From assembly GCA_002255905.1 (NCBI GenBank), contig NKIN01000002.1:1-64000 (forward strand): a stretch of 64,000 bases of DNA. Direction: 5' to 3'. The position numbers and the translations under genes are program-made. The notes beneath the pieces are model-generated. The model had not been told where the DNA came from. It did not search any database and worked only from the letters and a program-made list of their open reading frames with translations. This document shows, in pieces, positions 1,583 to 46,026 of this stretch (position 1 is its first letter; every line of letters starts with the position of its first letter). This DNA comes from Burkholderiales bacterium PBB1 (GTDB lineage Bacteria; Pseudomonadota; Gammaproteobacteria; Burkholderiales; Burkholderiaceae_C).

Positions 1583-1695
1583 GATCACTTCCAACCTGAA
1601 GCGCTGATCCCGAGCGGCCCGACGCCGCGTCGAATCCTTTTGCGTTGTTCCGTCTCGTGTGCAGCCGCACGCGAACCCACAGCAAGGAGATTTCG

Positions 1696-3003
1696 ATGCA
1701 CCGGCTTGCCTGTTGCCGAGCGTGGCGTGACCTGACCCGTTGGGGTTCATCACTCGCGCTCGGTTTCTGTACTCTCTCCCCCTCATGGGCTCAAAGCCCT
1801 GAGCCCGTCCCTGGCCCCCCGCTGACCTTGCCGCAGGCGCTCGCGCGGGCGATGTCATCGAATGCGGAACTGGCCGTGCTGAGCCGGGAGGTCGAAGCGG
1901 CGGAAGGCCCCGTGCTTCAGGGCGCTGCGCGACCTAACCCGGAACTGTCGTTCCTGCTCGAAGACACCCGGCGCTCGACCCGCACGACGACGGTCCAGGT
2001 CAACCAGGCACTGGAACTGGGCAACCAGCGCGCGGCACGCATCGTCGCTGCCGAGCGGGCCCGGGACATCGCTGCTGCCGAACTGGCGGCCAAGCGCGCC
2101 GATGTCCAGGCGGCAGTGGCAGCCAGCTTCTACGAGGTGCTGCTGGCGCAGGAGCGCCTGGCGCTGAGTCGAGGCGCGGTCGATCTGGCGCGGCGAGCCA
2201 GCGAGGTGGCTGGCAAGCGGGTGCAGGCTGGCAAGATTTCACCGGTCGAGGAAACGAAGGCGCTGACGGCCGAAGCCGGTGCCAGGCTGGACGCGGCGCA
2301 AGCCGACGCCGAACTCACGCTGTCTCGCCTGCGATTGGCGGCAAGTTGGGGCAGCACCACGCCCGACTTCGGGCCTACCGTTCGTCTCACGGCAAGCGCA
2401 GAGCCGCCTGTGGTGCCCACCGCAGACACGCTCGCCCGACGATTGGAGGCCTCGCCCGCACTGGCCCGTGCCCGTCTCGAAGTGCAGCGCCGCCAAGCCA
2501 TCAGCGAACTGGCGCGTGCCCAGCAGACACCCGATCTGACCGTGAGCGTCGGCGTCAAACGGGATGCGGAATTGCGCCTCACGCAAGCCGTGATGGGCTT
2601 GTCGATGCCGCTTCCGGTGTTCGATCGCAACCAGGGCAACCTGTTGGAGGCACTGAGGCGCGAAGACAAGGCCCGTGACGAGTTGCTCGCCGCAGAGATC
2701 GCATTGCGTACCTCGGTGCTGCAAGGCGCCAGCCGGCTGGCCGCGGCGAGCGCCGAGGTGACGATGCTGCGCGACACCGTGTTGCCAGGCGCGCAAAGCG
2801 CCTATGACGCAGCCACGAAGGGGTTCGAGTTGGGCAAGTTCAACTTTCTCGACGTCCTCGACGCGCAGCGCACGCTGTTCCAGGCCCAAGCCAACCATTT
2901 GCGTGCTCGCGGCGATGCGCTGCGCGCCGCCGTCGAGGTCGATCGATTGCTGGGCGATGGCGAAAGCACTGCCGCGCTGTCATCGACCTCGTCCAAGGAG
3001 TGA
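1696..3003 (+). CDS. czcC: CzcC, outer-membrane channel of a Co/Zn/Cd efflux RND system
   Basis: A 435-residue TolC-like outer-membrane factor. It starts at the ATG at 1696, which has AAGGAG 7 nt upstream; the longer frame from 1645 would spoil the signal peptide. The signal sequence ends near SPSWAQS. The protein then shows the two-fold repeated OEP pattern: LTLPQALARAMSSNAEL near the mature N-terminus and an equivalent repeat in the second half, with long amphipathic helices (EVEAAEGPVLQGAARPNP, then the characteristic GLSMPLPVFDRNQGN). It forms the exit duct through the outer membrane for ions pumped by CzcA and joined by CzcB. It ends 3 nt before czcB. Confidence 0.9.
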   Translation: MHRLACCRAWRDLTRWGSSLALGFCTLSPSWAQSPEPVPGPPLTLPQALARAMSSNAELAVLSREVEAAEGPVLQGAARPNPELSFLLEDTRRSTRTTTVQVNQALELGNQRAARIVAAERARDIAAAELAAKRADVQAAVAASFYEVLLAQERLALSRGAVDLARRASEVAGKRVQAGKISPVEETKALTAEAGARLDAAQADAELTLSRLRLAASWGSTTPDFGPTVRLTASAEPPVVPTADTLARRLEASPALARARLEVQRRQAISELARAQQTPDLTVSVGVKRDAELRLTQAVMGLSMPLPVFDRNQGNLLEALRREDKARDELLAAEIALRTSVLQGASRLAAASAEVTMLRDTVLPGAQSAYDAATKGFELGKFNFLDVLDAQRTLFQAQANHLRARGDALRAAVEVDRLLGDGESTAALSSTSSKE

Positions 3004-3006
3004 ACC

Positions 3007-7769
<4,763 letters not shown>

Positions 7770-7818
7770 ACGCCCCGTCGTCCAAGCGCACGTTGGGGTT
7801 GCTCCGGAGGCTTGTGCC

Positions 7819-10029
<2,211 letters not shown>

Positions 10030-10160
10030 CTCCCCTGGGGTTCATGGCCGCTGCTTGGTTCGAGTCAGGTCATCACCGTGGTGGCCTGACTGGCGAGTTG
10101 CCGGGCGTGGGTTGCCCTTGCCTCGGCGGGCTGGCCCAGGGCTTGCCTACAGAATGACGC

Positions 10161-13100
10161 ATGGCAACCGCTGACACCCCCGCTGCACATCCCGTCGCAC
10201 CATTGCCTCCGCTGGGTCCGGCGATCGTGCCGCAGCCGGGCCGTGCCCGCAGCGAAGCGGTGCAGCGCGTCGTCAAGGTGCGCCGCGACTACAACAGCTG
10301 GGTCGCGCGCGAGACGATGGAGGACTACGCGCTGCGCTTCACGCCGCGCAGCTTTCGCAAGTGGTCGGAGCTGCGGGTGGCGAACACCGCCTTCGGCGCC
10401 TCGTCGTTCCTGGTGCTCGAGGCGGTGGGCGCGACGCTGCTGGTCGAGTACGGTTTCGTCAACGCGTTCTGGGCCATCCTGGCCACCGGGCTGATCATTT
10501 TTCTGGCCGGGCTGCCGATCAGCCATTACGCCGCGCGCTATGGCGTCGACATGGACCTGCTGACGCGCGGCGCCGGCTTTGGCTACATCGGCTCCACCGT
10601 CACCTCGCTGATCTACGCGAGCTTCACCTTCATCTTCTTCGCGCTCGAAGCAGCCATCATGGCTTACGCGCTCGAGCTGGCTTTCGACATCCCGCCGGCC
10701 TGGGGCTACCTGGTCTGCGCGCTGGCGGTGATCCCGTTGGTGACACACGGCGTCACCGTCATCAGCCGGCTGCAGGTGTGGACACAGCCGCTGTGGCTGG
10801 TGCTGATGATCGTGCCCTACGTCTATGTGTTCCACCGCAACCCGCATCTGATCGACGACCTGTCGCGCTATGCCGGTGCCGACGGGCAGGGCGGCCATTT
10901 CGACCTGGCGCTGTTCGGCGCCGCGATGACGGTGGGCATCGCGCTGATCACGCAGATGGGCGAGCAGGCCGACTACCTGCGCTTCATGCCGGAACGCACC
11001 GCCGCCAACCGCCGCCGCTGGTGGGCCGGCCTGCTGATCGGCGGGCCGGGCTGGGTGGTGCCCGGCGTGCTGAAGATGCTGGGCGGTGCGCTGCTGGCAT
11101 ACCTGGCCATCAGCCACGCGGTGCCGGTGGAGCGCGCGGTGGACCCGAACCAGATGTACCTGGTGGCGTATGAAAGCGTGTTCGCAAACCAGGTGTTCCA
11201 CCCGCAGACCTGGGCGATCGCCGCCACCGCGCTGCTGGTGGTCGTGTCACAGCTGAAGATCAATGTGACCAACGCTTATGCGGGCTCGCTCGCGTGGTCG
11301 AACTTCTTCGCGCGGCTCACGCACAGCCACCCGGGGCGGGTGGTGTGGATGGTGTTCAACACCGTGATCGCGCTGATGCTGATGGAGCTCAATGTGTTCC
11401 AGGCGCTGGGCCAGGTGCTGGGCCTGTACTCGAACATCGCGATCAGCTGGATCATGGCGGTGGTGGCCGACCTGGTCATCAACAAGCCGATGGGCTGGAG
11501 TCCGAAAGGCATCGAGTTCAAGCGCGCACACCTGTACGACATCAACCCGGTTGGTGTCGGCGCGATGGGCCTCGCCTCGGTGCTGTCGATCGCCGCCTAC
11601 CTCGGGCTGATGGGCCCGATGGCCGAGGCGTTCTCGGCGGCGATTGCACTGGTCACCGCCTTCGTCACGGCCCCGCTGATCGCCTGGTACACCCAAGGCA
11701 AGTACTACCTGGCGAGAGACCTTCACGCCCGCAACCCACGCGTATCGAATCAAGCCACGCCCGTGGATCCGGCTACGCCGGTCCACCAGGCGGCGCCCCC
11801 CGGGGGCAGGAGCGCAGCGACTGGGGGGCTCACCAAATGCACGGTCTGCGAACGCGACTACGAGGGCGAGGACATGGCCTACTGCCCGGCCTACCTCGGC
11901 TCGATCTGCTCGCTGTGCTGCTCGCTCGATGCGCGATGCAACGACATGTGCAAACCGCAGGCGAACTGGTCGGCGCAGTGGCAGGCAGTCGGTCGCCAGC
12001 TGTTGCCCAGCGGCGTGTGGGCGCGGCTCGACACCGAGCTCGGGCGCTATCTGCTGCTGATGTCGGCCATCGCGCCGCTGCTGGCGCTGCTGTTCTGGAT
12101 GATCTATCGCCAGCAGCTGAGCACCTTCGACACACCGGACGCAAAACTGGCCAGTGCGCTGGCGATGGGTTTCGTCAAGGCCTACGCCGGGCTGATCGTG
12201 GTGACGGCCATCGTCGGATGGTGGCTGGTGCTCACGCACCAGAGCCGCCAGGTCGCGCAGGAGGAAAGCAACCGCCAGACGCATGCGCTGAACGAGCAGA
12301 CCGAGGTGCTGCGCGAGGAGATCGCCTCGCACCGCCGCACCGACGAGGCGCTGCAAGAGGCCAAGCGGCTGGCCGACACCGCCAACCAGGCCAAGAGCCG
12401 CTACATCACCACCATCAGCCACGAGCTGCGTACGCCGCTCAACAGCATCATCGGCTACGCGCAGTTGCTGGACGAAGACGACTCAATCCCGGCGCACCGC
12501 AAGCAGGCGGTCAGTGTGATCCGCCGCGGCGGGGATCACCTGCTGTCGCTGATCGAGGGCACGCTGGACATCGCACGCATCGAAAGCGGCCGCTTCGCGC
12601 TTGAGGTCAAGCCGATGCGGCTGCGCGATTGCCTGAGCGAGATGACCAGTCTGTTCGCGCTGCAGGCAGCCGGCAAGGGCATCGAATTTCGGCATGCGGT
12701 GGCCGACAGCGTGCCCGAGCTGGTGCGCACCGACGAGAAGCGCCTGCGCCAGATCCTGATCAACGTGCTGGGCAATGCGGTGAAGTTCACCTCGCAGGGG
12801 CACGTGGTCTTCCGGGTCAGTCATTCGCGCCAGATGGCGCTGTTCGAGATCGAGGACACCGGCCCGGGCATCGCGCCTGATGAACTGGGGCAGATCTTCG
12901 AGCCGTTTGCCCGCGGCTCGGCCATCGGCGGTGGCGCCTCGGGCGCCTCGGTCGGCAGCACCGGGCTCGGTCTGACCATCAGCAAGATGCTGACCGACGT
13001 GATGGGCGGTGAGATGACGGTGGGCAGCGTGGCCGGCCCGGTGCCGCGCACGGGCACGGTGTTCCGCATCCGATTGTTCCTGCCGGAGGTGCGCGCCGAG

Positions 13101-13793
13101 GCGGTCGACGGCATCGACCTGCCGCGCACCCAGCGCATCGGCTACACGGGCGTGCGGCGCCGGCTGCTGGTGGTCGACAACGAAGAGATCGACCGCGAGC
13201 TGCTGCGCAACGTGCTGGAGCCCCTGGGCTTCGAGCTGCGGCAGGCTGCCTCGGGCGCGGAGTGCCTGGAACGCCTGCGCGATTTCAGTCCCGACGCGAT
13301 CCTGATGGACCTGGCGATGCCGGGCATCGATGGCTGGGAAACCATCCGCCGCATTCGCGCCGAACAGCTGAGCGACGCGCCGATCGCGATCGTGTCGGCC
13401 AACGCGTTCGAGAAGGGCACCGACAACATCGTGGGCATCCCTGCCGAGGACTTCATCCTGAAGCCGGTGCGCAAGTCGGAGCTGCTCGACTGGCTGGGTC
13501 GCGTGCTGGCGCTGCAATGGTTGGAGGTACCGCAACGCGCTGTCTCAGGCGGGCTCACGGCGCCTGCTGCCACGGTTGTCGAACCCATGGTGCTGCCTTC
13601 GCCGGAGCGCTTGCGCAGCCTGCAGGAAATGATCGAGCTCGGCTACTTCCGCGGCATCGTCAAGCAACTCGACGAGATCGCGGCCAACGACCCGGGCACT
13701 GCACCGTTTGTCCACCACATGCGGCAGCTCGCGCAGCAGTTCCAGCTTGACGCGATGACCGGCGTGATCCGCAAGGCCCAGGATGCTGCCTGA
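10161..13793 (+). CDS. NCS1-permease / histidine kinase / receiver fusion protein
   Basis: A 1210-residue hybrid sensor. Residues about 1-520 are an NCS1 (purine-cytosine-allantoin type) permease with about 12 membrane helices. Residues about 560-598 hold a Cys-rich block (CTVCERD, YCPAYLG, CSLCCSLDARCNDMC). Two more membrane helices lie at about 628-700, then a coiled coil, a HisKA domain with ISHELRTPL (H754), a HATPase with N box (LINVLGNAVKFT) and GLGLT, and a receiver with phospho-acceptor D1050 (LMDLAMPGIDG). About 90 residues follow the receiver. It plausibly senses an imported nucleobase or hydantoin-like compound and signals to the response regulator whose start lies inside its last codons. 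Kinase-linked transporters are known (CbrA with an SSS domain); the ligand here is unknown. The linker at about 535-557 is encoded by a repeat-like sequence. Confidence 0.85.
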   Translation: MATADTPAAHPVAPLPPLGPAIVPQPGRARSEAVQRVVKVRRDYNSWVARETMEDYALRFTPRSFRKWSELRVANTAFGASSFLVLEAVGATLLVEYGFVNAFWAILATGLIIFLAGLPISHYAARYGVDMDLLTRGAGFGYIGSTVTSLIYASFTFIFFALEAAIMAYALELAFDIPPAWGYLVCALAVIPLVTHGVTVISRLQVWTQPLWLVLMIVPYVYVFHRNPHLIDDLSRYAGADGQGGHFDLALFGAAMTVGIALITQMGEQADYLRFMPERTAANRRRWWAGLLIGGPGWVVPGVLKMLGGALLAYLAISHAVPVERAVDPNQMYLVAYESVFANQVFHPQTWAIAATALLVVVSQLKINVTNAYAGSLAWSNFFARLTHSHPGRVVWMVFNTVIALMLMELNVFQALGQVLGLYSNIAISWIMAVVADLVINKPMGWSPKGIEFKRAHLYDINPVGVGAMGLASVLSIAAYLGLMGPMAEAFSAAIALVTAFVTAPLIAWYTQGKYYLARDLHARNPRVSNQATPVDPATPVHQAAPPGGRSAATGGLTKCTVCERDYEGEDMAYCPAYLGSICSLCCSLDARCNDMCKPQANWSAQWQAVGRQLLPSGVWARLDTELGRYLLLMSAIAPLLALLFWMIYRQQLSTFDTPDAKLASALAMGFVKAYAGLIVVTAIVGWWLVLTHQSRQVAQEESNRQTHALNEQTEVLREEIASHRRTDEALQEAKRLADTANQAKSRYITTISHELRTPLNSIIGYAQLLDEDDSIPAHRKQAVSVIRRGGDHLLSLIEGTLDIARIESGRFALEVKPMRLRDCLSEMTSLFALQAAGKGIEFRHAVADSVPELVRTDEKRLRQILINVLGNAVKFTSQGHVVFRVSHSRQMALFEIEDTGPGIAPDELGQIFEPFARGSAIGGGASGASVGSTGLGLTISKMLTDVMGGEMTVGSVAGPVPRTGTVFRIRLFLPEVRAEAVDGIDLPRTQRIGYTGVRRRLLVVDNEEIDRELLRNVLEPLGFELRQAASGAECLERLRDFSPDAILMDLAMPGIDGWETIRRIRAEQLSDAPIAIVSANAFEKGTDNIVGIPAEDFILKPVRKSELLDWLGRVLALQWLEVPQRAVSGGLTAPAATVVEPMVLPSPERLRSLQEMIELGYFRGIVKQLDEIAANDPGTAPFVHHMRQLAQQFQLDAMTGVIRKAQDAA
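11763..11829. repeat. candidate dispersed repeat with two inverted repeats, inside a coding region
   Basis: GTGGATCCGGC (11763-11773) and GCCGGTCCAC (11777-11786) form an almost perfect hairpin. It is followed by GCCCCCC (11795-11801) and GGGGGGC (11823-11829), which pair across a 21-nt spacer. The stretch is translated in frame as the low-complexity linker between the permease and the Cys-rich block (PVHQAAPPGGRSAATGG). Similar G/C-run elements are, from memory, frequent between genes in Burkholderiales genomes, so this may be a mobile intergenic repeat captured in an open reading frame. There is only one copy in this window. Confidence 0.4.
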
Positions 13794-14733
13794 CGCACTG
13801 AATCCGCTGAACCGCGGCATCGCCGACGTGGTGCTGATCGTCGATGACGTGCCCGACAACCTGTCGGTACTGCACGACGCGCTCGACGAATCGGGCTACA
13901 CGGTGCTGGTGGCCACCAACGGCGAGGCGGCCATCCAGCGCGCGGCGCAGGCGCTGCCCGACATCGTGCTGCTCGACGCGGTGATGCCCGGCCTCGACGG
14001 CTTCGAGGTGGCGCGGCGGCTGAAGGCGCGGCCCGACACCGCGCACATCCCGATCGTCTTCATGACCGGGCTCACCGACACCGAGCACGTGGTGCAGGCC
14101 TTTCAGGCGGGTGGCGTCGATTACGTCACCAAGCCGATCCGCGCCAAGGAAGTGCTGGCGCGCATGGCGGTGCATGTGCAGGGTGCACGGCAGGCCCGGC
14201 AGGCGCGCAACGCGCTCGATGCGTTCGGCCACGCGACGCTGGTGGTGCGGGCGGCCGACGGCAGGATCGTCTGGAAGACACCGCTGGCGCGCGAACTGCT
14301 GATGCAGCATTTCGATGGCGGCGAGCTCGACGCCGCGGTACTGGCCTGGGTGCGCGACGAGCTGGCGCGCCGCGCGGTGGCCGGCGCCATGCCCGGCGAG
14401 CCGCTCACGTTGGCGCGGCAGAACCGCCGCCTGATCCTGGCGTTGCACGAACAGACAGGCGACGACGAATGGCTGATCGTGATGCGCGAAAGCTCGGATC
14501 AGGCCGTGATCGACGCGCTGGGCGCGGCCTTCAAGCTGACCACCCGCGAAGCCGAGGTGCTGTACTGGCTGGCCAAGGGCAAGACCAACCGCGACATCGG
14601 CGACATCCTCGGCTCCAGCCCGGCGACGGTAAAGAAGCATCTGGAGCGCGTCTACGTGAAGCTAGGGGTCGAAACCCGAACCGCCGCGGCGTCGGTGGCC
14701 ATGAGCCGGCTGCGGCCGGTGGGGCAGGGCTGA
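13783..14733 (+). CDS. two-component response regulator, receiver + LuxR-type HTH
   Basis: A 316-residue regulator. The receiver domain spans residues about 15-130 with phospho-acceptor D65 (LLDAVMPGLDG), T in FMTGL and K in TKPIRAKE. A middle region of about 100 residues (130-240) matches nothing I recognise but looks like a small PAS-like or recA-unrelated sensor segment. The C-terminus is a LuxR/GerE HTH (LTTREAEVLYWLAKGKTN to MSRLRPV). The ATG lies 11 nt inside the end of the NCS1-kinase gene, so the two are translationally coupled and very likely partners. Targets are unknown; purine or urea catabolism is a guess from the permease type. Confidence 0.87.
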   Translation: MLPDALNPLNRGIADVVLIVDDVPDNLSVLHDALDESGYTVLVATNGEAAIQRAAQALPDIVLLDAVMPGLDGFEVARRLKARPDTAHIPIVFMTGLTDTEHVVQAFQAGGVDYVTKPIRAKEVLARMAVHVQGARQARQARNALDAFGHATLVVRAADGRIVWKTPLARELLMQHFDGGELDAAVLAWVRDELARRAVAGAMPGEPLTLARQNRRLILALHEQTGDDEWLIVMRESSDQAVIDALGAAFKLTTREAEVLYWLAKGKTNRDIGDILGSSPATVKKHLERVYVKLGVETRTAAASVAMSRLRPVGQG

Positions 14734-40261: not shown

Positions 40262-40969
40262 CTAGATCGACATCTTCGCCCGCACGCCCTCGGCTTCCAT
40301 GTCCTGGCCTCGTCCGCGCTGGATGATCTCGCCACGCTCCATCACCAGGTACTGGTCGGCCAGCTCGGCGGCGAAGTCGTAGTACTGCTCTACCAGAACG
40401 ATCGCCATCTTCTGGCCAGAAGCCATGCCGCGATCGGCCAGCATGCGGATCACGCGGCCGATGTCCTTGATGACGCTGGGCTGGATGCCTTCGGTCGGCT
40501 CGTCGAGGATCAGCAGTTTCGGCCCTGCAGCCAGCGCGCGCGCAATGGCCAACTGCTGCTGCTGGCCGCCCGACAAGTCGCCGCCGCGGCGGTTGATCAT
40601 CTGCTTCAACACCGGAAACAGCTCGAAGATCTGCGGCGGGATCGGCGTGCTGCCGCTCTTGTAGGCCAGGCCCATGCGCAGGTTTTCTTCCACCGTCAGC
40701 CGCCCGAAGATCTCGCGGCCCTGCGGCACATAGCCCACCCCCTTGCGCACCCGCTCGTAAGGCGTGTCGCGCGTGATCGCTGCACCGTCGAGCGTGATGC
40801 TGCCGGTCTTCACGGGCACCACGCCCATCAGGCTTTTCAGCAGCGTGGTCTTGCCCACGCCGTTGCGGCCCAGGATCACCGTGACCTCGCCGGCCCGGGC
40901 CTCGAACCCGACATTGCGCAGGATGTGCGAGCCGCCGTAGTACTGGTTGACACCTTCGACCTTGAGCAT
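40262..40969 (-). CDS. urtE: urea ABC transporter ATPase UrtE
   Basis: A 235-residue branched-chain-type (LivF-like) ATPase: Walker A GRNGVGKTT, signature LSGGQQQQLA, Walker B LLILDEPTEG and switch histidine region VLVEQYYDFA. UrtE ends typically in a short GRGQDMEAEGVR-type tail. It starts at 40969 (MLKVEGVNQYYGGSH), 1 nt after the urtD stop. It hydrolyses ATP for urea import and is the last gene of the urtABCDE operon. In most relatives ureD would follow here; in this window a CopD-like gene faces it. Confidence 0.92.
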   Translation of the reverse strand: MLKVEGVNQYYGGSHILRNVGFEARAGEVTVILGRNGVGKTTLLKSLMGVVPVKTGSITLDGAAITRDTPYERVRKGVGYVPQGREIFGRLTVEENLRMGLAYKSGSTPIPPQIFELFPVLKQMINRRGGDLSGGQQQQLAIARALAAGPKLLILDEPTEGIQPSVIKDIGRVIRMLADRGMASGQKMAIVLVEQYYDFAAELADQYLVMERGEIIQRGRGQDMEAEGVRAKMSI

Positions 40970-40970
40970 C

Positions 40971-41861
40971 TCAACGGCCAAGATAAACCTCCACCACCTT
41001 CTCATTGGCCTGCACTTCGCTCAGCAACCCCTCGGCCAGTACGCTGCCCTCGTGCAGCACGGTCACCTTCTTGCCGTTCCTGCCGTTTTGCGTCAGCTCG
41101 CCGATGAACTTCATGTCGTGCTCGACCACCACCAGCGAATGGCTGCCCTCCAGCGACAGGAACAGCTCGGCGGTGCGTTCGGTCTCTTCGTCGGTCATGC
41201 CTGCCACCGGCTCGTCGAGCAGCAGCAGCTTCGGGTCCTGCATCAGCAGCATGCCGATCTCCAGCCACTGCTTCTGGCCGTGGCTCAGCAGCCCGGCGTT
41301 GCGCTGCGCGCTGTCCTTCAGGTGGATCAGCGTCAGCATCGCGCCGATGCGGTCGAGCTGCTCGCCGTTCAGGCGAAAGAACATCGACGAGCGCACGCCA
41401 CGGTCGGCGCGCAGGGCCAGCTCGAGGTTCTCGAACACGCTCAGCTGCTCGAACACCGTGGGCTTCTGGAACTTGCGACCGATGCCGATCGAGGCGATCT
41501 CGTTCTCGCGCAGGCGCAGCAGGTCGATCGTCGACCCGAAGTAGGCGTGCCCCAGGTCGGGCCGTGTCTTGCCGGTGATCACGTCCATCATCGTGGTCTT
41601 GCCGGCGCCGTTCGGGCCGATGATGCAGCGCAGTTCGCCGGCGCTGATGCTCAACGACAGCGCGTTCAGCGCCTTGAAGCCGTCGAAGCTGACCGTGATG
41701 TCGTCGAGGTACAGGATGGCGCCGTGCGACACGTCCAGCGTGCCCGGTTCGTGCAGCCGTCGGTAGCTGGCCTGGCGCCCTCCGGAGCTGCCCTCGATCG
41801 CGGATTTCTCTTCCCGGGCGCGGCGGATCCGGGCGCCCGCCTTCATCAGGTCGGGGGTCAT
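40971..41861 (-). CDS. urtD: urea ABC transporter ATPase UrtD
   Basis: A 296-residue LivG-like ATPase with Walker A GPNGAGKTT, ABC signature LSHGQKQWLE and Walker B KLLLLDEPVAGM. A 45-residue N-terminal extension (about 1-45) rich in Arg and Glu precedes the domain. The start at ATG 41861 overlaps the urtC stop (ATGA). The frame is open further upstream but only across urtC. It works with UrtE on the UrtBC channel. Confidence 0.9.
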   Translation of the reverse strand: MTPDLMKAGARIRRAREEKSAIEGSSGGRQASYRRLHEPGTLDVSHGAILYLDDITVSFDGFKALNALSLSISAGELRCIIGPNGAGKTTMMDVITGKTRPDLGHAYFGSTIDLLRLRENEIASIGIGRKFQKPTVFEQLSVFENLELALRADRGVRSSMFFRLNGEQLDRIGAMLTLIHLKDSAQRNAGLLSHGQKQWLEIGMLLMQDPKLLLLDEPVAGMTDEETERTAELFLSLEGSHSLVVVEHDMKFIGELTQNGRNGKKVTVLHEGSVLAEGLLSEVQANEKVVEVYLGR

Positions 41862-42976
41862 GAGGGGTCGTCCTTCTTGCGGCGCAGCAGGCCCACGATG
41901 CCGTTCGGCAGGAACAGCGTCACCGCGATGAACAAGGCCCCGAGGAAGTACAGCCAGAACTCGGGGAACACCTGTGTGAACCAGCTCTTGGCGCCGTTGA
42001 CGAAAAACGCGCCGATGATGGGCCCGATCAGCGTGCCTCGCCCACCGACGGCCGTCCAGATGGCGATCTCGATGCCGGCTGCGGGCGACATCTCGCTCGG
42101 GTTGATGATGCCCACCTGTGGCACGTACAAGGCGCCGGCGATGCCGCACATCACCGCCGAGATCACCCAGATCGACAGCTTGTACTTCAGCGGGTCGTAG
42201 CCGGTGAACATCACGCGCGTCTCGGCGTCGCGGATGGCCTGCAGCACGCGGCCGAACTTGCTCGTGACCAGCCAGCGGGCGAACAGGAAGAAGCCGATCA
42301 GCGTCAGCCCGGTCATCACGAACAGCGTCATCCGCATGCCGGGTGTGGCGATCGGATGCCCCAGGATGCGCTTGAAATCGGTGAAGCCGTTGTTGCCGCC
42401 GAAACCGGTCTCGTTGCGAAAGAACAGCAGCATCGCGGCGAACGTGACCGCCTGCGTGATGATCGAGAAGTACACCCCCTTGATGCGGGAGCGGAACGCG
42501 AAAAAGCCGAACACGAACGCCAGCAGGCCCGGCACCAGCACCACCAGCAGCATCTGCGCGACGAACGAATCGCTGAGCGCCCAGTGCCAGGGCAGCGTCT
42601 TCCAGTCGAGGAACACCATGAAGTCGGGCAGGTCCGACTGGTAGTTGCCGTCGCGGCCGATCTGGCGCATCAGGTACATGCCCATCGCGTAGCCACCGAG
42701 TGCGAAGAACATGCCGTGCCCCAGCGACAGGATGCCGGTGTAGCCCCAGATCAGGTCCATGGCCAGCGCGCAGATGGCGTAGCACATGATCTTGGCGATC
42801 AGCTGTACCGCGTAGTCGCTCAGATGGAACGGGCTGGTCTCAGGGATCAGCAGGTTCATCGCCGGCACCAGCACCGAGACCAGCAGCACGAAGGTGAACA
42901 GCACGCTCCACATCGGGCCGGTGAGCAAGCCGCCGCGCGGTGGCGCGATCGACAGCGGCGGCATCACGGCGCTCAT
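41858..42976 (-). CDS. urtC: urea ABC transporter permease UrtC
   Basis: A 372-residue LivM-like permease with about ten membrane helices and the cytoplasmic coupling loop (RDAETRVMFTGYDPLKYK). It contains GGYAMGMYLMRQIGRDG and GFRFFRNETGFGGNNG-like segments characteristic of UrtC. It pairs with UrtB to form the urea pore. The start overlaps the urtB stop. Confidence 0.92.
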   Translation of the reverse strand: MSAVMPPLSIAPPRGGLLTGPMWSVLFTFVLLVSVLVPAMNLLIPETSPFHLSDYAVQLIAKIMCYAICALAMDLIWGYTGILSLGHGMFFALGGYAMGMYLMRQIGRDGNYQSDLPDFMVFLDWKTLPWHWALSDSFVAQMLLVVLVPGLLAFVFGFFAFRSRIKGVYFSIITQAVTFAAMLLFFRNETGFGGNNGFTDFKRILGHPIATPGMRMTLFVMTGLTLIGFFLFARWLVTSKFGRVLQAIRDAETRVMFTGYDPLKYKLSIWVISAVMCGIAGALYVPQVGIINPSEMSPAAGIEIAIWTAVGGRGTLIGPIIGAFFVNGAKSWFTQVFPEFWLYFLGALFIAVTLFLPNGIVGLLRRKKDDPS

Positions 42977-44595
42977 GCTTCCGCACTCCGGCCCTTCATC
43001 GCGAAGATGCCCTGCGGCCGCTTCTGGATGAAGATGACGATGAACACCAGCACCATGATCTTGGCGAGCACCGCACCCTGCCAGCCTTCGAGCAGCTTGT
43101 TCAGGATGCCCAGGCCCATCGCGGCATAGACGGTACCGGCCAGCTGGCCCACCCCGCCCAGCACCACCACCATGAACGAGTCGACGATGTAGCCCTGGCC
43201 GAGGTCGGGGCCCACATTGCCCACCTGCGACAGCGCACAGCCGGCCAGCCCCGCAATGCCTGAACCCAGTGCGAACGCATAGGTGTCGACGCGGGCGGTG
43301 TTGACGCCCACGCAGGCGGCCATCTTGCGGTTTTGCGTCACGCCGCGCACGAACAAGCCGAGCCGTGTGCGAGCGATCAGCAAGGACACCCCCGCCAGCA
43401 CCAGCACCGCGAAGCCGATGATGGCCAGCCGGTTGTAGGGCAGCGTCAGGTTGCTCAGCACATCGACGCCACCCGACAGCCAGGCCGGGTTTTCCACTTG
43501 CACGTTCTGCGCGCCGAACAGGCTGCGCACGCCTTGCATCAGCACCAGGCTGATGCCCCAGGTGGCCAGCAGTGTCTCAAGTGGCCGGCCATACAGCCAG
43601 CGGATCACGCTGCGCTCGAGCACCGCACCGACGAGCGCGGCCACCAGAAACGAGGCCGGCACCGCAGCCACCATGTACCAGCCGAACCAATCGGGCAGGT
43701 GCGCCTTGAACACGTTTTGCACCAGGTAGGTGGCGTAGGCGCCGATCATCATCAGCTCGCCATGGGCCATGTTGATCACGCCCATCAGCCCATAGGTGAT
43801 GGCGAGGCCCAGGGCCACCAGCAGCAGGATCGACCCCAGGCTGACACCGGTGAAGACCACGCCCAGCCGCTCGCCCCAGGCCAGCTGCGCTTCGACCCCG
43901 GCGAGTGCCGCCGTGAGCTGCGCGCGCACCTCGGGCTCGGGTTCCACGCCTGGCTTCAGCCGCTCGATCAGCAGCGCCTTGGTGGCTGGGGTGCGGCTTT
44001 CGGCCAGCACCTTCGCCGCTTCGAGCCGATGGCCCTTGTCGCTGGAGGACACCAGCACCGCCGCGCGCAGCAGGCCCAGATCAGCTTTCAGCGACGCATC
44101 GGTCTCGGCGGCCAGGGCCTTCTCGATGACTGGCAGCTTCGATTCGTCGGCACCATCACGCAGTTCGCGCACCGCCTGTCGGCGCTCGGCCGGGTCGCTC
44201 GACAGCAGCTTCAGCGAGGCCATCGCCGATTCCAGCTCACGGCGCAGCCGGTTGCTGTTGATCACGTCTTCGGCGTCTTCAGGCAGCTTGGTGTCGGCAC
44301 CCGTGGCGGCCTCGCGCACTTTCTCGTCACGAACGATGAACACCTTCTCGCCCGACACCTTCACCGCATCATCGAGCAAGGCCTGGAAGAAGGCCTGCGC
44401 CGCAGGATCGCCGCTGGCAGCGGCTTGCGAAATGGCCTGCGAGCGTGCATCGCTGTCGCCGGCCGACATCGCCAGCACCTGCTCGTGTGTCAGCGCGTGG
44501 GCGGCCGACACACCGAACAAGGCGGCCGACGCCGCGATGAACACCACTCGCTTCAACTTCTCCAGCAACAGTGGCACCTCCCCAGGCGTGTTCAT
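42973..44595 (-). CDS. urtB: urea ABC transporter permease UrtB
   Basis: A 540-residue LivH-like permease. The N-terminal 230 residues form the exported helical extension typical of UrtB, after a signal segment (VVFIAASAALFGVSAAHA). The membrane domain follows with GLAITYGLMGVINMAHGELM. The ATG at 44595 has no strong ribosome site; an in-frame TTG at 44568 has GGGGAGG 8 nt upstream and may be the true start, giving 531 residues. It follows urtA by about 30 nt. Confidence 0.9.
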   Translation of the reverse strand: MNTPGEVPLLLEKLKRVVFIAASAALFGVSAAHALTHEQVLAMSAGDSDARSQAISQAAASGDPAAQAFFQALLDDAVKVSGEKVFIVRDEKVREAATGADTKLPEDAEDVINSNRLRRELESAMASLKLLSSDPAERRQAVRELRDGADESKLPVIEKALAAETDASLKADLGLLRAAVLVSSSDKGHRLEAAKVLAESRTPATKALLIERLKPGVEPEPEVRAQLTAALAGVEAQLAWGERLGVVFTGVSLGSILLLVALGLAITYGLMGVINMAHGELMMIGAYATYLVQNVFKAHLPDWFGWYMVAAVPASFLVAALVGAVLERSVIRWLYGRPLETLLATWGISLVLMQGVRSLFGAQNVQVENPAWLSGGVDVLSNLTLPYNRLAIIGFAVLVLAGVSLLIARTRLGLFVRGVTQNRKMAACVGVNTARVDTYAFALGSGIAGLAGCALSQVGNVGPDLGQGYIVDSFMVVVLGGVGQLAGTVYAAMGLGILNKLLEGWQGAVLAKIMVLVFIVIFIQKRPQGIFAMKGRSAEA

Positions 44596-44627
44596 CGAGC
44601 GTCGGCCTATCGTCGCAAGCACGGCGA

Positions 44628-45899
44628 TCACTTCTTCTCAGGCTCGTCCTTCTTCTTGTCGTTGCCTTCGATGTACGGGCTCCAGGGCATGGCCTTGACC
44701 GGGCCCGGCGTCTTCCACACCACATTGAACTGGCCGTCGGCCTTGATCTCGCCGATGAACACCGACTTGTGCAGGTGGTGGTTCTTCGGGTCCATCATCG
44801 AGGTGATGCCGCTCGGTGCCTTGAAGGTCTGGCCGGCCATCGCCGCGATCACCTTGTCGGTGTCGGTGCTCTTGGCCTTCTCGACCGCCTGCTTCCACAT
44901 GTGGATGCCGATGTAGGTGGCTTCCATCGGGTCGTTGGTCAGAGGCTTGTCGGCGCCGGGCAGCTTCTTGGCCTTGGAGTACTCGGCCCATTGCTTCTTG
45001 AACGCGTCGTTGGTCGGGTTCTTGATCGACATGAAGTAGTTCCACGCCGCCAGGTGACCCACCAGCGGCTTGGTGTCGACACCGCGCAGTTCCTCTTCAC
45101 CCACCGAGAACGCCACCACCGGCACGTCGGTTGCCTTCAGGCCCTGGTTGCCCAGCTCCTTGTAGAACGGCACGTTGGAGTCGCCATTGATGGTGGAGAT
45201 CACCGCCGTCTTGCCACCGGCTGCGAACTTCTTGATGTCGGCGACGATGGTCTGGTAGTCGCTGTGGCCGAACGGGGTGTACTTCTCGTCGATGTCCTCG
45301 TCCTTCACGCCCTTGCTCTTCAGGAAGGCGCGCAGGATCTTGTTGGTGGTGCGCGGGTACACGTAGTCGGTGCCCAGCAGCACGAAGCGCTTGGCCGAGC
45401 CGCCGTCCTTGCTCATCAGGTACTCGACCGCCGGAATGGCTTGCTGGTTCGGCGCGGCACCGGTGTAGAACACGTTCTTGCTGAGCTCTTCACCCTCGTA
45501 CTGCACCGGGTAGAACAGCAGGCTGTTGAGTTCCTCGAACACCGGCAGCACCGACTTGCGCGACACGCTGGTCCAGCAGCCGAAGGTCACCACCACCTTG
45601 TCTTGCGTGATCAGCTGCTTGGCCTTCTCGGCGAACAGCGGCCAGTTCGACGCCGGATCGACCACCACCGGCTCGAGCTTCTTGCCCAGCACGCCGCCCT
45701 TGGCATTGATCTCGTCGATCGCCATCAGCACGGTGTCCTTCAACACGGTTTCCGAAATCGCCATCGTGCCCGACAGCGAATGCAGCACGCCCACCTTGAT
45801 GGTGTCGGCGGCGCTGGCCAGCGAACTGAAGCCGAGGGCGGCCACGGCCATGGCCACGGCCGTGAGTGACTTGCCGATCTGGCGGCGGGATGTGTTCAT
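44628..45899 (-). CDS. urtA: urea ABC transporter substrate-binding protein UrtA
   Basis: A 423-residue periplasmic protein of the amide-binding type. The start at 45899 gives a signal peptide (MNTSRRQIGKSLTAVAMA to SLASA) with a possible Tat RR. The mature part begins DTIKVGVLHSLSGTMAISE and includes VTFGCWTSVSRKSVLPVFE, FYPVQYEGEE and GTDYVYPRTTN, all seen in UrtA rather than in amino-acid-binding relatives. It captures urea for UrtBCDE. GGAG precedes the ATG. A candidate sigma-54 promoter lies about 100 bp upstream. Confidence 0.94.
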   Translation of the reverse strand: MNTSRRQIGKSLTAVAMAVAALGFSSLASAADTIKVGVLHSLSGTMAISETVLKDTVLMAIDEINAKGGVLGKKLEPVVVDPASNWPLFAEKAKQLITQDKVVVTFGCWTSVSRKSVLPVFEELNSLLFYPVQYEGEELSKNVFYTGAAPNQQAIPAVEYLMSKDGGSAKRFVLLGTDYVYPRTTNKILRAFLKSKGVKDEDIDEKYTPFGHSDYQTIVADIKKFAAGGKTAVISTINGDSNVPFYKELGNQGLKATDVPVVAFSVGEEELRGVDTKPLVGHLAAWNYFMSIKNPTNDAFKKQWAEYSKAKKLPGADKPLTNDPMEATYIGIHMWKQAVEKAKSTDTDKVIAAMAGQTFKAPSGITSMMDPKNHHLHKSVFIGEIKADGQFNVVWKTPGPVKAMPWSPYIEGNDKKKDEPEKK

Positions 45900-46010
45900 A
45901 GAGGGTGCGCTCCTGTGGGTTGTTCGGTCGTCAGACAAGCGGCCCGAACAGGCCGACTTGCGTGCGACGCAGGTTACGCAGATGGCCGCGCCAGCGAAAT
46001 ACGCCCGATG

Positions 46011-46026
46011 GCGTATGCCGTGCCAA
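46011..46026 (-). promoter_or_regulatory. candidate sigma-54 promoter of urtABCDE
   Basis: On the minus strand the sequence reads TTGGCACGGCATACGC. It has the full -24 element (TTGGCACG), the fixed 10-base spacing between GG and GC and the -12 GC; the two T of TTGC are AC. The predicted transcription start is about 100 bp before urtA. Urea uptake is commonly under NtrC/sigma-54 control when nitrogen is low. I could not find a clear NtrC palindrome upstream. Confidence 0.5.

Follow-up and report, generated by a model that had tools for sequence, protein, structure and literature searches.

A candidate urea-responsive transceptor kinase with an NCS1-type input domain in a Burkholderiales bacterium

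Two overlapping genes of Burkholderiales bacterium PBB1, which lie in the 64,000-nucleotide stretch of DNA analysed here (the window), encode a hybrid histidine kinase with a transporter-like input domain and its response regulator. Since most of the close relatives that we examined adjoin genes of urea use, the pair probably constitutes a urea-responsive transceptor kinase system for the use of urea and amides. Such neighbourhoods, read from sequence, point to a pathway and not to a ligand; what is sensed might instead be ammonium, nickel or a precursor of urea.

Architecture of the kinase and its regulator

The kinase gene (10161..13793, forward strand) was recognized by its 1210-residue open reading frame, its domains and its orthologues. 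By the coordinates of the reading frames, the ATG of the cognate response regulator (13783..14733, forward strand; 316 residues) lies 11 nt inside it, as the initial annotation had described. Pfam finds, all on the forward strand, a HisKA dimerisation and phospho-acceptor domain (12390..12590, residues 744-810; PF00512, E 4.5e-17), a HATPase_c catalytic domain (12729..13082, residues 857-974; PF02518, E 1.9e-23) and a receiver (13167..13490, residues 1003-1110; PF00072, E 6.8e-22). The catalytic residues H754 and D1050 had been correctly placed from the outset, and with them these three domains make the protein a hybrid histidine kinase; an NCBIfam search of it returned kinase models only. Beyond the receiver there is a partly conserved C-terminal tail (residues 1111-1210, window 13491-13790) with a GYxxG motif, and because this tail has no conserved histidine it is apparently not an Hpt domain. 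The regulator is of the NarL/FixJ type, with a receiver (PF00072, E 8.4e-28) and a LuxR-type GerE helix-turn-helix (PF00196, E 1.5e-16); the roughly 110 residues that separate the two (residues ~140-250, window 14200-14530) have no Pfam match above cut-off, and Pfam detects no AAA+ domain in the protein.

The transporter part of the kinase (residues ~53-511; 10317..11693, forward strand) has the NCS1 fold with twelve helical segments, as judged from an AlphaFold2 model of residues 1-745 (pLDDT 81, pTM 0.81) and its structure matches. The model aligns with CodB over 395 residues at 3.4 A (Z 34.1) and with Mhp1 at Z 25-28; the best LeuT-fold structure outside NCS1 reaches Z 24, and the SSS structures, at Z ~21-22, fall far below CodB. 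Sequence identity to CodB and Mhp1 is 12-16%, residues 1-680 have no Pfam match at E<1, PF02133 included, kinase-free relatives likewise fail to match PF02133, and searches of PDB sequences with the N-terminal part returned nothing. A bridge is nonetheless provided by a Pantoea permease (L180), which is 26% identical to the transporter domain (E 8e-34; hhalign E 5.6e-34) and itself matches PF02133 at 5e-10. Because the fold matches to CodB and Mhp1 and this sequence link agree, the NCS1 assignment made in the initial annotation is right, although invisible to Pfam: by model and sequence together, the transporter part is a divergent NCS1 branch. Nearly 80 of its residues are invariant across kinase-fused and kinase-free members. 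The Pantoea permease itself (L180:2950-7437, on a plasmid of Pantoea sp. SOD02) is a distant NCS1 protein without a Cys tail, and its neighbours, a nitrilase-type hydrolase, a substrate-binding protein and an ANTAR protein, recall amidase operons.

The transporter is followed by a Cys block (residues 560-597; 11838..11951, forward strand) with the pattern C-x2-C-x11-C-x7-C-x2-CC-x5-C-x3-C. Its cysteines, first counted as nine, number eight (560, 563, 575, 583, 586, 587, 593 and 597). All are invariant in 74 aligned orthologues, and the pattern is present in every one of the best 80 named loci, with exact gaps in 79 and a longer first gap in one, as well as in all 30 of the phylum-wide loci checked; the pairing of Cys block and NCS1 domain, which it had been suggested to check, is thus conserved. 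Being preceded by an even number of helices and linked to a kinase, the block presumably lies on the cytoplasmic side. In two models it takes the form of a strand, a CxxC knuckle, a beta-hairpin and a short helix that begins at CSLCC, a predicted secondary structure that would fit a treble clef. Searched alone it has no significant match in Pfam, among PDB sequences or among folds: its top Foldseek hits come mainly from zinc domains of the RING, PHD, FYVE and ZZ types, none below E 0.4, and structure comparison gives Z of at most 4.3, with no single match significant.

Kinase-free permeases allow this block to be dissected further. One of them (L048:9766-11442) has all eight cysteines and ends shortly after them, the urease-linked Acinetobacter and G279 proteins keep C560, C563, C583 and C586 and are missing the other four, and the Tsukamurella protein has lost most of the eight. 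Because kinase-free permeases retain cysteines, the block belongs to the transporter tail and not to the kinase. A first zinc site would then be formed by residues 560/563/583/586 and a second by 575/587/593/597. Such zinc would probably be structural, of the zinc-finger kind, which is the simpler reading given the predicted zinc-finger-like hairpin and helix and the urease-linked, kinase-free relatives with four cysteines of the eight. Between block and kinase the two extra membrane helices of the initial annotation are also predicted by the secondary structure of the AlphaFold2 model, as a hairpin (residues 626-655 and the first part of 661-744; 12036..12230, forward strand), whose second helix, 661-744, runs as one long helix into HisKA.

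Distribution and gene context of the family

The genome searches were run with the N-terminal region or with a relative that lacks a kinase as query, and the open frames that they recovered are mostly of kinase-fusion length. Relatives turned up in 18 of 369 class-level, 36 of 61 family-level and 52 of 398 sampled Pseudomonadota genomes, on 536 plasmids and, across the genome collection, in at least 594 stretches; the Klebsiella plasmid records that hold a relative of the sensor number 342. The response regulator adjoins the kinase in 63 of the best 80 named loci, cases at contig ends included. It had been foreseen that homologues might be split into separate permease and kinase genes, with an assembly error joining them here, or that the cysteines might not be conserved; since dozens of genomes carry the fusion, with its cysteines conserved, misassembly can be dismissed and the gene is not an isolated case. 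Other outputs exist. In one genome (G137) the NCS1-Cys module is joined to PAS-PAS-HisKA-HATPase-REC at one locus (L057:9022-12837) and to PAS-GGDEF-EAL at another (L056:6851-10519), so that the same input stands on both kinase and c-di-GMP outputs; no urea genes were detected near either locus. Because it is attached to such differing signal outputs, the module most plausibly serves as an input domain.

The gene context was counted within a radius of ~10 kb around the best 80 named loci, 55 of which have good flanks. Urease or urea-ABC (urt) genes are near 45 of these 55 (urease 37, urt 26), and the remaining 10 have no urea genes nearby; in the full set of 80, some ure or urt gene is present at 65, and ureA is divergent and adjacent at 43. 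Urea genes likewise lie near most of another 15 loci that belong to the same family. The flanks, including those of relatives without urea genes, show no further recurrent gene family; in particular, neither nucleobase, hydantoin or allantoin genes nor metal genes are recurrent neighbours. The arrangement varies with the host: urease is divergent and urt farther along in a Mitsuaria relative, and urt is divergent in Rhizobium and Sinorhizobium. On a Klebsiella pneumoniae plasmid (NZ_CP103700.1, IncFIB/IncFII; L038:5897-15369) a 45%-identical relative, annotated only as an ATP-binding protein, has formamidase and urtABCDE divergent from it. Among the kinase-free members, formamidase lies beside the Tsukamurella copy and urease beside those of Acinetobacter and G279. 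A gene table for Dechloromonas aromatica places, without comment in the table itself, a histidine kinase of 1131 residues and a receiver protein of 308 residues alongside urt and ure genes (PMC2907700).

In the phylogenetic tree the window copy groups within the clade linked to urease (support 99), with an Aquabacterium copy adjoining urease as its sister, and its closest relative in the family (G415, 78%) also adjoins urease. The sole ureC found in its own genome is on another contig (C17); the window pair has been moved away from the urease operon. A complete urtABCDE operon for a urea ABC transporter (40262..45938, reverse strand; NCBIfam TIGR03407, 03409, 03408, 03411 and 03410, all above cut-off) lies 26 kb downstream of the regulator, and its urtA is 86% identical to the urtA adjoining the orthologue at locus L071; this operon is likely a target or functional partner of the kinase pair. 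On contig C17 there is a paralogue of the kinase (301020-304427), divergent from urtABCDE-fmdA-fmdB, the last two encoding formamidase; the paralogous pair and its urt-fmd region (L044:2722-13893, C17 ~300.1-311.2 kb) are several kb from the urease operon. For this paralogue, the gene context makes formamide or another short-chain amide the best reading of the ligand. Directly upstream of the window kinase and on the same strand (window 1645-10029) are czcC-like, czcB and czcA (1064 aa) genes and one for a ZntA/CadA-type P-type ATPase (TIGR01525 and TIGR01512 above cut-off in NCBIfam); ribF is a further neighbour. This czcCBA-zntA association is peculiar to this genome among the relatives examined.

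Gibbs sampling of 45 ureA-kinase intergenic regions yielded GTGGCAYGAAAGCTGCACC, on the kinase strand in most of them, which we take to be the -24/-12 form of a sigma-54 promoter; similar sites stand on the opposite strand near the ureA start in several of the 45. In the window, the 131-nt gap between zntA and the kinase, in which no terminator was found, contains a candidate sigma-54 promoter, TGGCCCAGGGCTTGC (10132..10146, forward strand), an exact TGGC-N7-TTGC that matches the motif upstream of the orthologues. Since the window holds four such exact matches against ~4.7 expected, it is notable by its position only. A weaker sigma-54-like site, TTGGCACGGCATACGCCA (46009..46026, reverse strand), is present upstream of urtA by pattern only, and the genome's own ureA is likewise preceded by a weaker look-alike. 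Because no AAA+ domain is present in the regulator, such promoters would require an NtrC-type activator. Masked Gibbs sampling for the regulator's own binding site gave only motifs that lie at the ureA start codon or barely exceed shuffled controls.

A proposed mechanism and competing readings

If the pair indeed responds to urea, its NCS1-fold domain would bind urea in the central LeuT-type site; in the paralogue the ligand would be formamide or some other short-chain amide. The change between outward and inward conformations would be felt by the C-terminal tail, with its eight-cysteine, presumably zinc-bearing, finger-like unit in the cytoplasm, and passed to the membrane hairpin, whose second helix is predicted to continue unbroken into the HisKA dimer. 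Autophosphorylation of H754 would thereby be switched, with subsequent phosphotransfer to the LuxR-type regulator, and the internal receiver (D1050) may act as a modulator. The regulator would then turn on urea use, that is urease and, in this genome, probably also urtABCDE 26 kb away. Through sigma-54 promoters of the kind seen as a motif in the orthologues, nitrogen status is likely to gate both the system and its targets at the level of transcription.

Several other readings partly overlap with this one, and the likelihoods given to them need not sum to one. The protein could mainly carry urea actively, its kinase registering flux and not occupancy; the transporter residues invariant between kinase-fused and kinase-free members would fit this, and CbrA both transports and signals (PMC7096432, PMC13022988). 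Urea uptake is, however, already supplied by urtABCDE, and we think this reading rather unlikely. The Cys block might add a second input by reporting redox state or one of the metals that matter to urease (zinc or nickel), and so gating the urea signal. Consistent with this are the invariance of the eight cysteines in all kinase fusions checked, the absence of the second quartet (575, 587, 593, 597) from urease-linked kinase-free members and the position of the window copy after czcCBA-zntA. But the predicted unit is compact and its weak matches are mostly to structural zinc domains, the kinase-free L048 permease keeps all eight cysteines and metal genes do not recur nearby, and we consider such a dual input doubtful. 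More speculative still, and improbable in our estimation, is a general picture in which a family of NCS1 transceptors binds, and perhaps carries, urea and small amides, has interchangeable outputs (histidine kinase, PAS-kinase and GGDEF-EAL) and uses a two-zinc cytoplasmic finger that additionally responds to metal or redox state, tying the sensing of urea to the availability of the metal that urease requires.

The translocated window copy raises a separate question, namely whether it was rewired after its move to serve the metal-efflux locus or some other regulon, the paralogue near urease having taken over urea control. The kinase gene does begin 131 nt after zntA with no terminator found between them, and urease and paralogue do share contig C17. 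Against this, the transporter part of the window copy remains 78-83% identical to those of urease-linked relatives with all its cysteines and signalling residues kept, the zntA-kinase gap has its own sigma-54-like site and urtABCDE is on the same contig as the window pair, all of which leaves rewiring a very unlikely outcome. The initial annotation had favoured a nucleobase-type ligand, and the nearest solved folds are indeed those of a cytosine carrier (CodB) and a hydantoin carrier (Mhp1); urea genes might then be regulated since nucleobase- or hydantoin-type compounds break down to urea. This idea fared poorly: the recurrent context is urease, the urea ABC transporter and formamidase, with no recurrent genes for nucleobases, hydantoins or allantoin, urease or formamidase genes directly adjoin the kinase-free members, a urea precursor would be superfluous in the branch linked to formamidase and identity to the two carriers is only 12-16%. 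It is, in our judgement, highly improbable, and we retain urea or a related amide as the preferred signal.

Relation to known transporter-kinases and significance

CbrA has been described as a histidine-binding and histidine-transporting SLC5 domain followed by a STAC linker and a kinase (PMC13022988). The initial annotation had likened the present protein to CbrA, and its NCS1 fold and recurrent kinase fusion support the analogy. Like CbrA, CrbS and RpuS, it unites a LeuT-fold transporter and a histidine kinase in one polypeptide, has a response regulator as partner and appears to serve nutrient sensing. It differs from these SLC5 proteins in that its transporter is of the NCS1 type (CodB Z 34 against ~21-22 for SSS structures), which rejects membership of the SLC5/STAC family, in having an eight-cysteine block and a membrane hairpin and no predicted PAS domain or STAC-like four-helix bundle, and in the urea/amide context of its family. 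For STAC this was judged from Pfam, which gives no match above cut-off in residues 511-743, and from the Cys unit and membrane hairpin predicted in its place. By analogy, CbrA serves as the working model for the NCS1-kinase sensor, which would operate in the same way with NCS1 in place of SLC5/STAC. Another candidate precedent, the kinase of EupR, was set aside, its transporter part being SSF and not NCS1 (PMC2964678).

With CodB and Mhp1 (TC 2.A.39) the transporter domain has its fold and twelve-helix length in common; it is set apart from them by low identity, the lack of a PF02133 match, the C-terminal Cys tail and kinase, and the urea/amide context. A linear, non-heterocyclic nitrogen compound has a precedent as an NCS1 substrate in MetT, which carries metformin (PMC13390362); MetT is a plain transporter without a kinase, and is likened to the proposed sensor by type of substrate, not by relation to its branch. 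The urea/formamidase cluster of Klebsiella pKPN307 plasmids resembles that of NZ_CP103700.1 in its urt and formamidase genes, which are given, with no mention of a sensor, in the part of the report that describes the cluster (PMC5506382); NZ_CP103700.1 has the sensor relative as well.

In the open literature our searches brought up no account of an NCS1-kinase fusion or of this urea system, and the transporter-kinase fusions that they did find are of the SLC5/STAC type. Here a second transporter family appears to have been made into a receptor, with a Cys linker of its own, and this sensor extends to 52 of 398 Pseudomonadota genomes and to Klebsiella plasmids that also bear urea and formamidase genes. 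If urea is what is sensed, the family would provide a direct receptor for the control of urease and urt by urea in beta- and alphaproteobacteria, and its modular input, found on a kinase, a PAS-kinase and a c-di-GMP enzyme, would offer a means of studying how transporters evolve into sensors.
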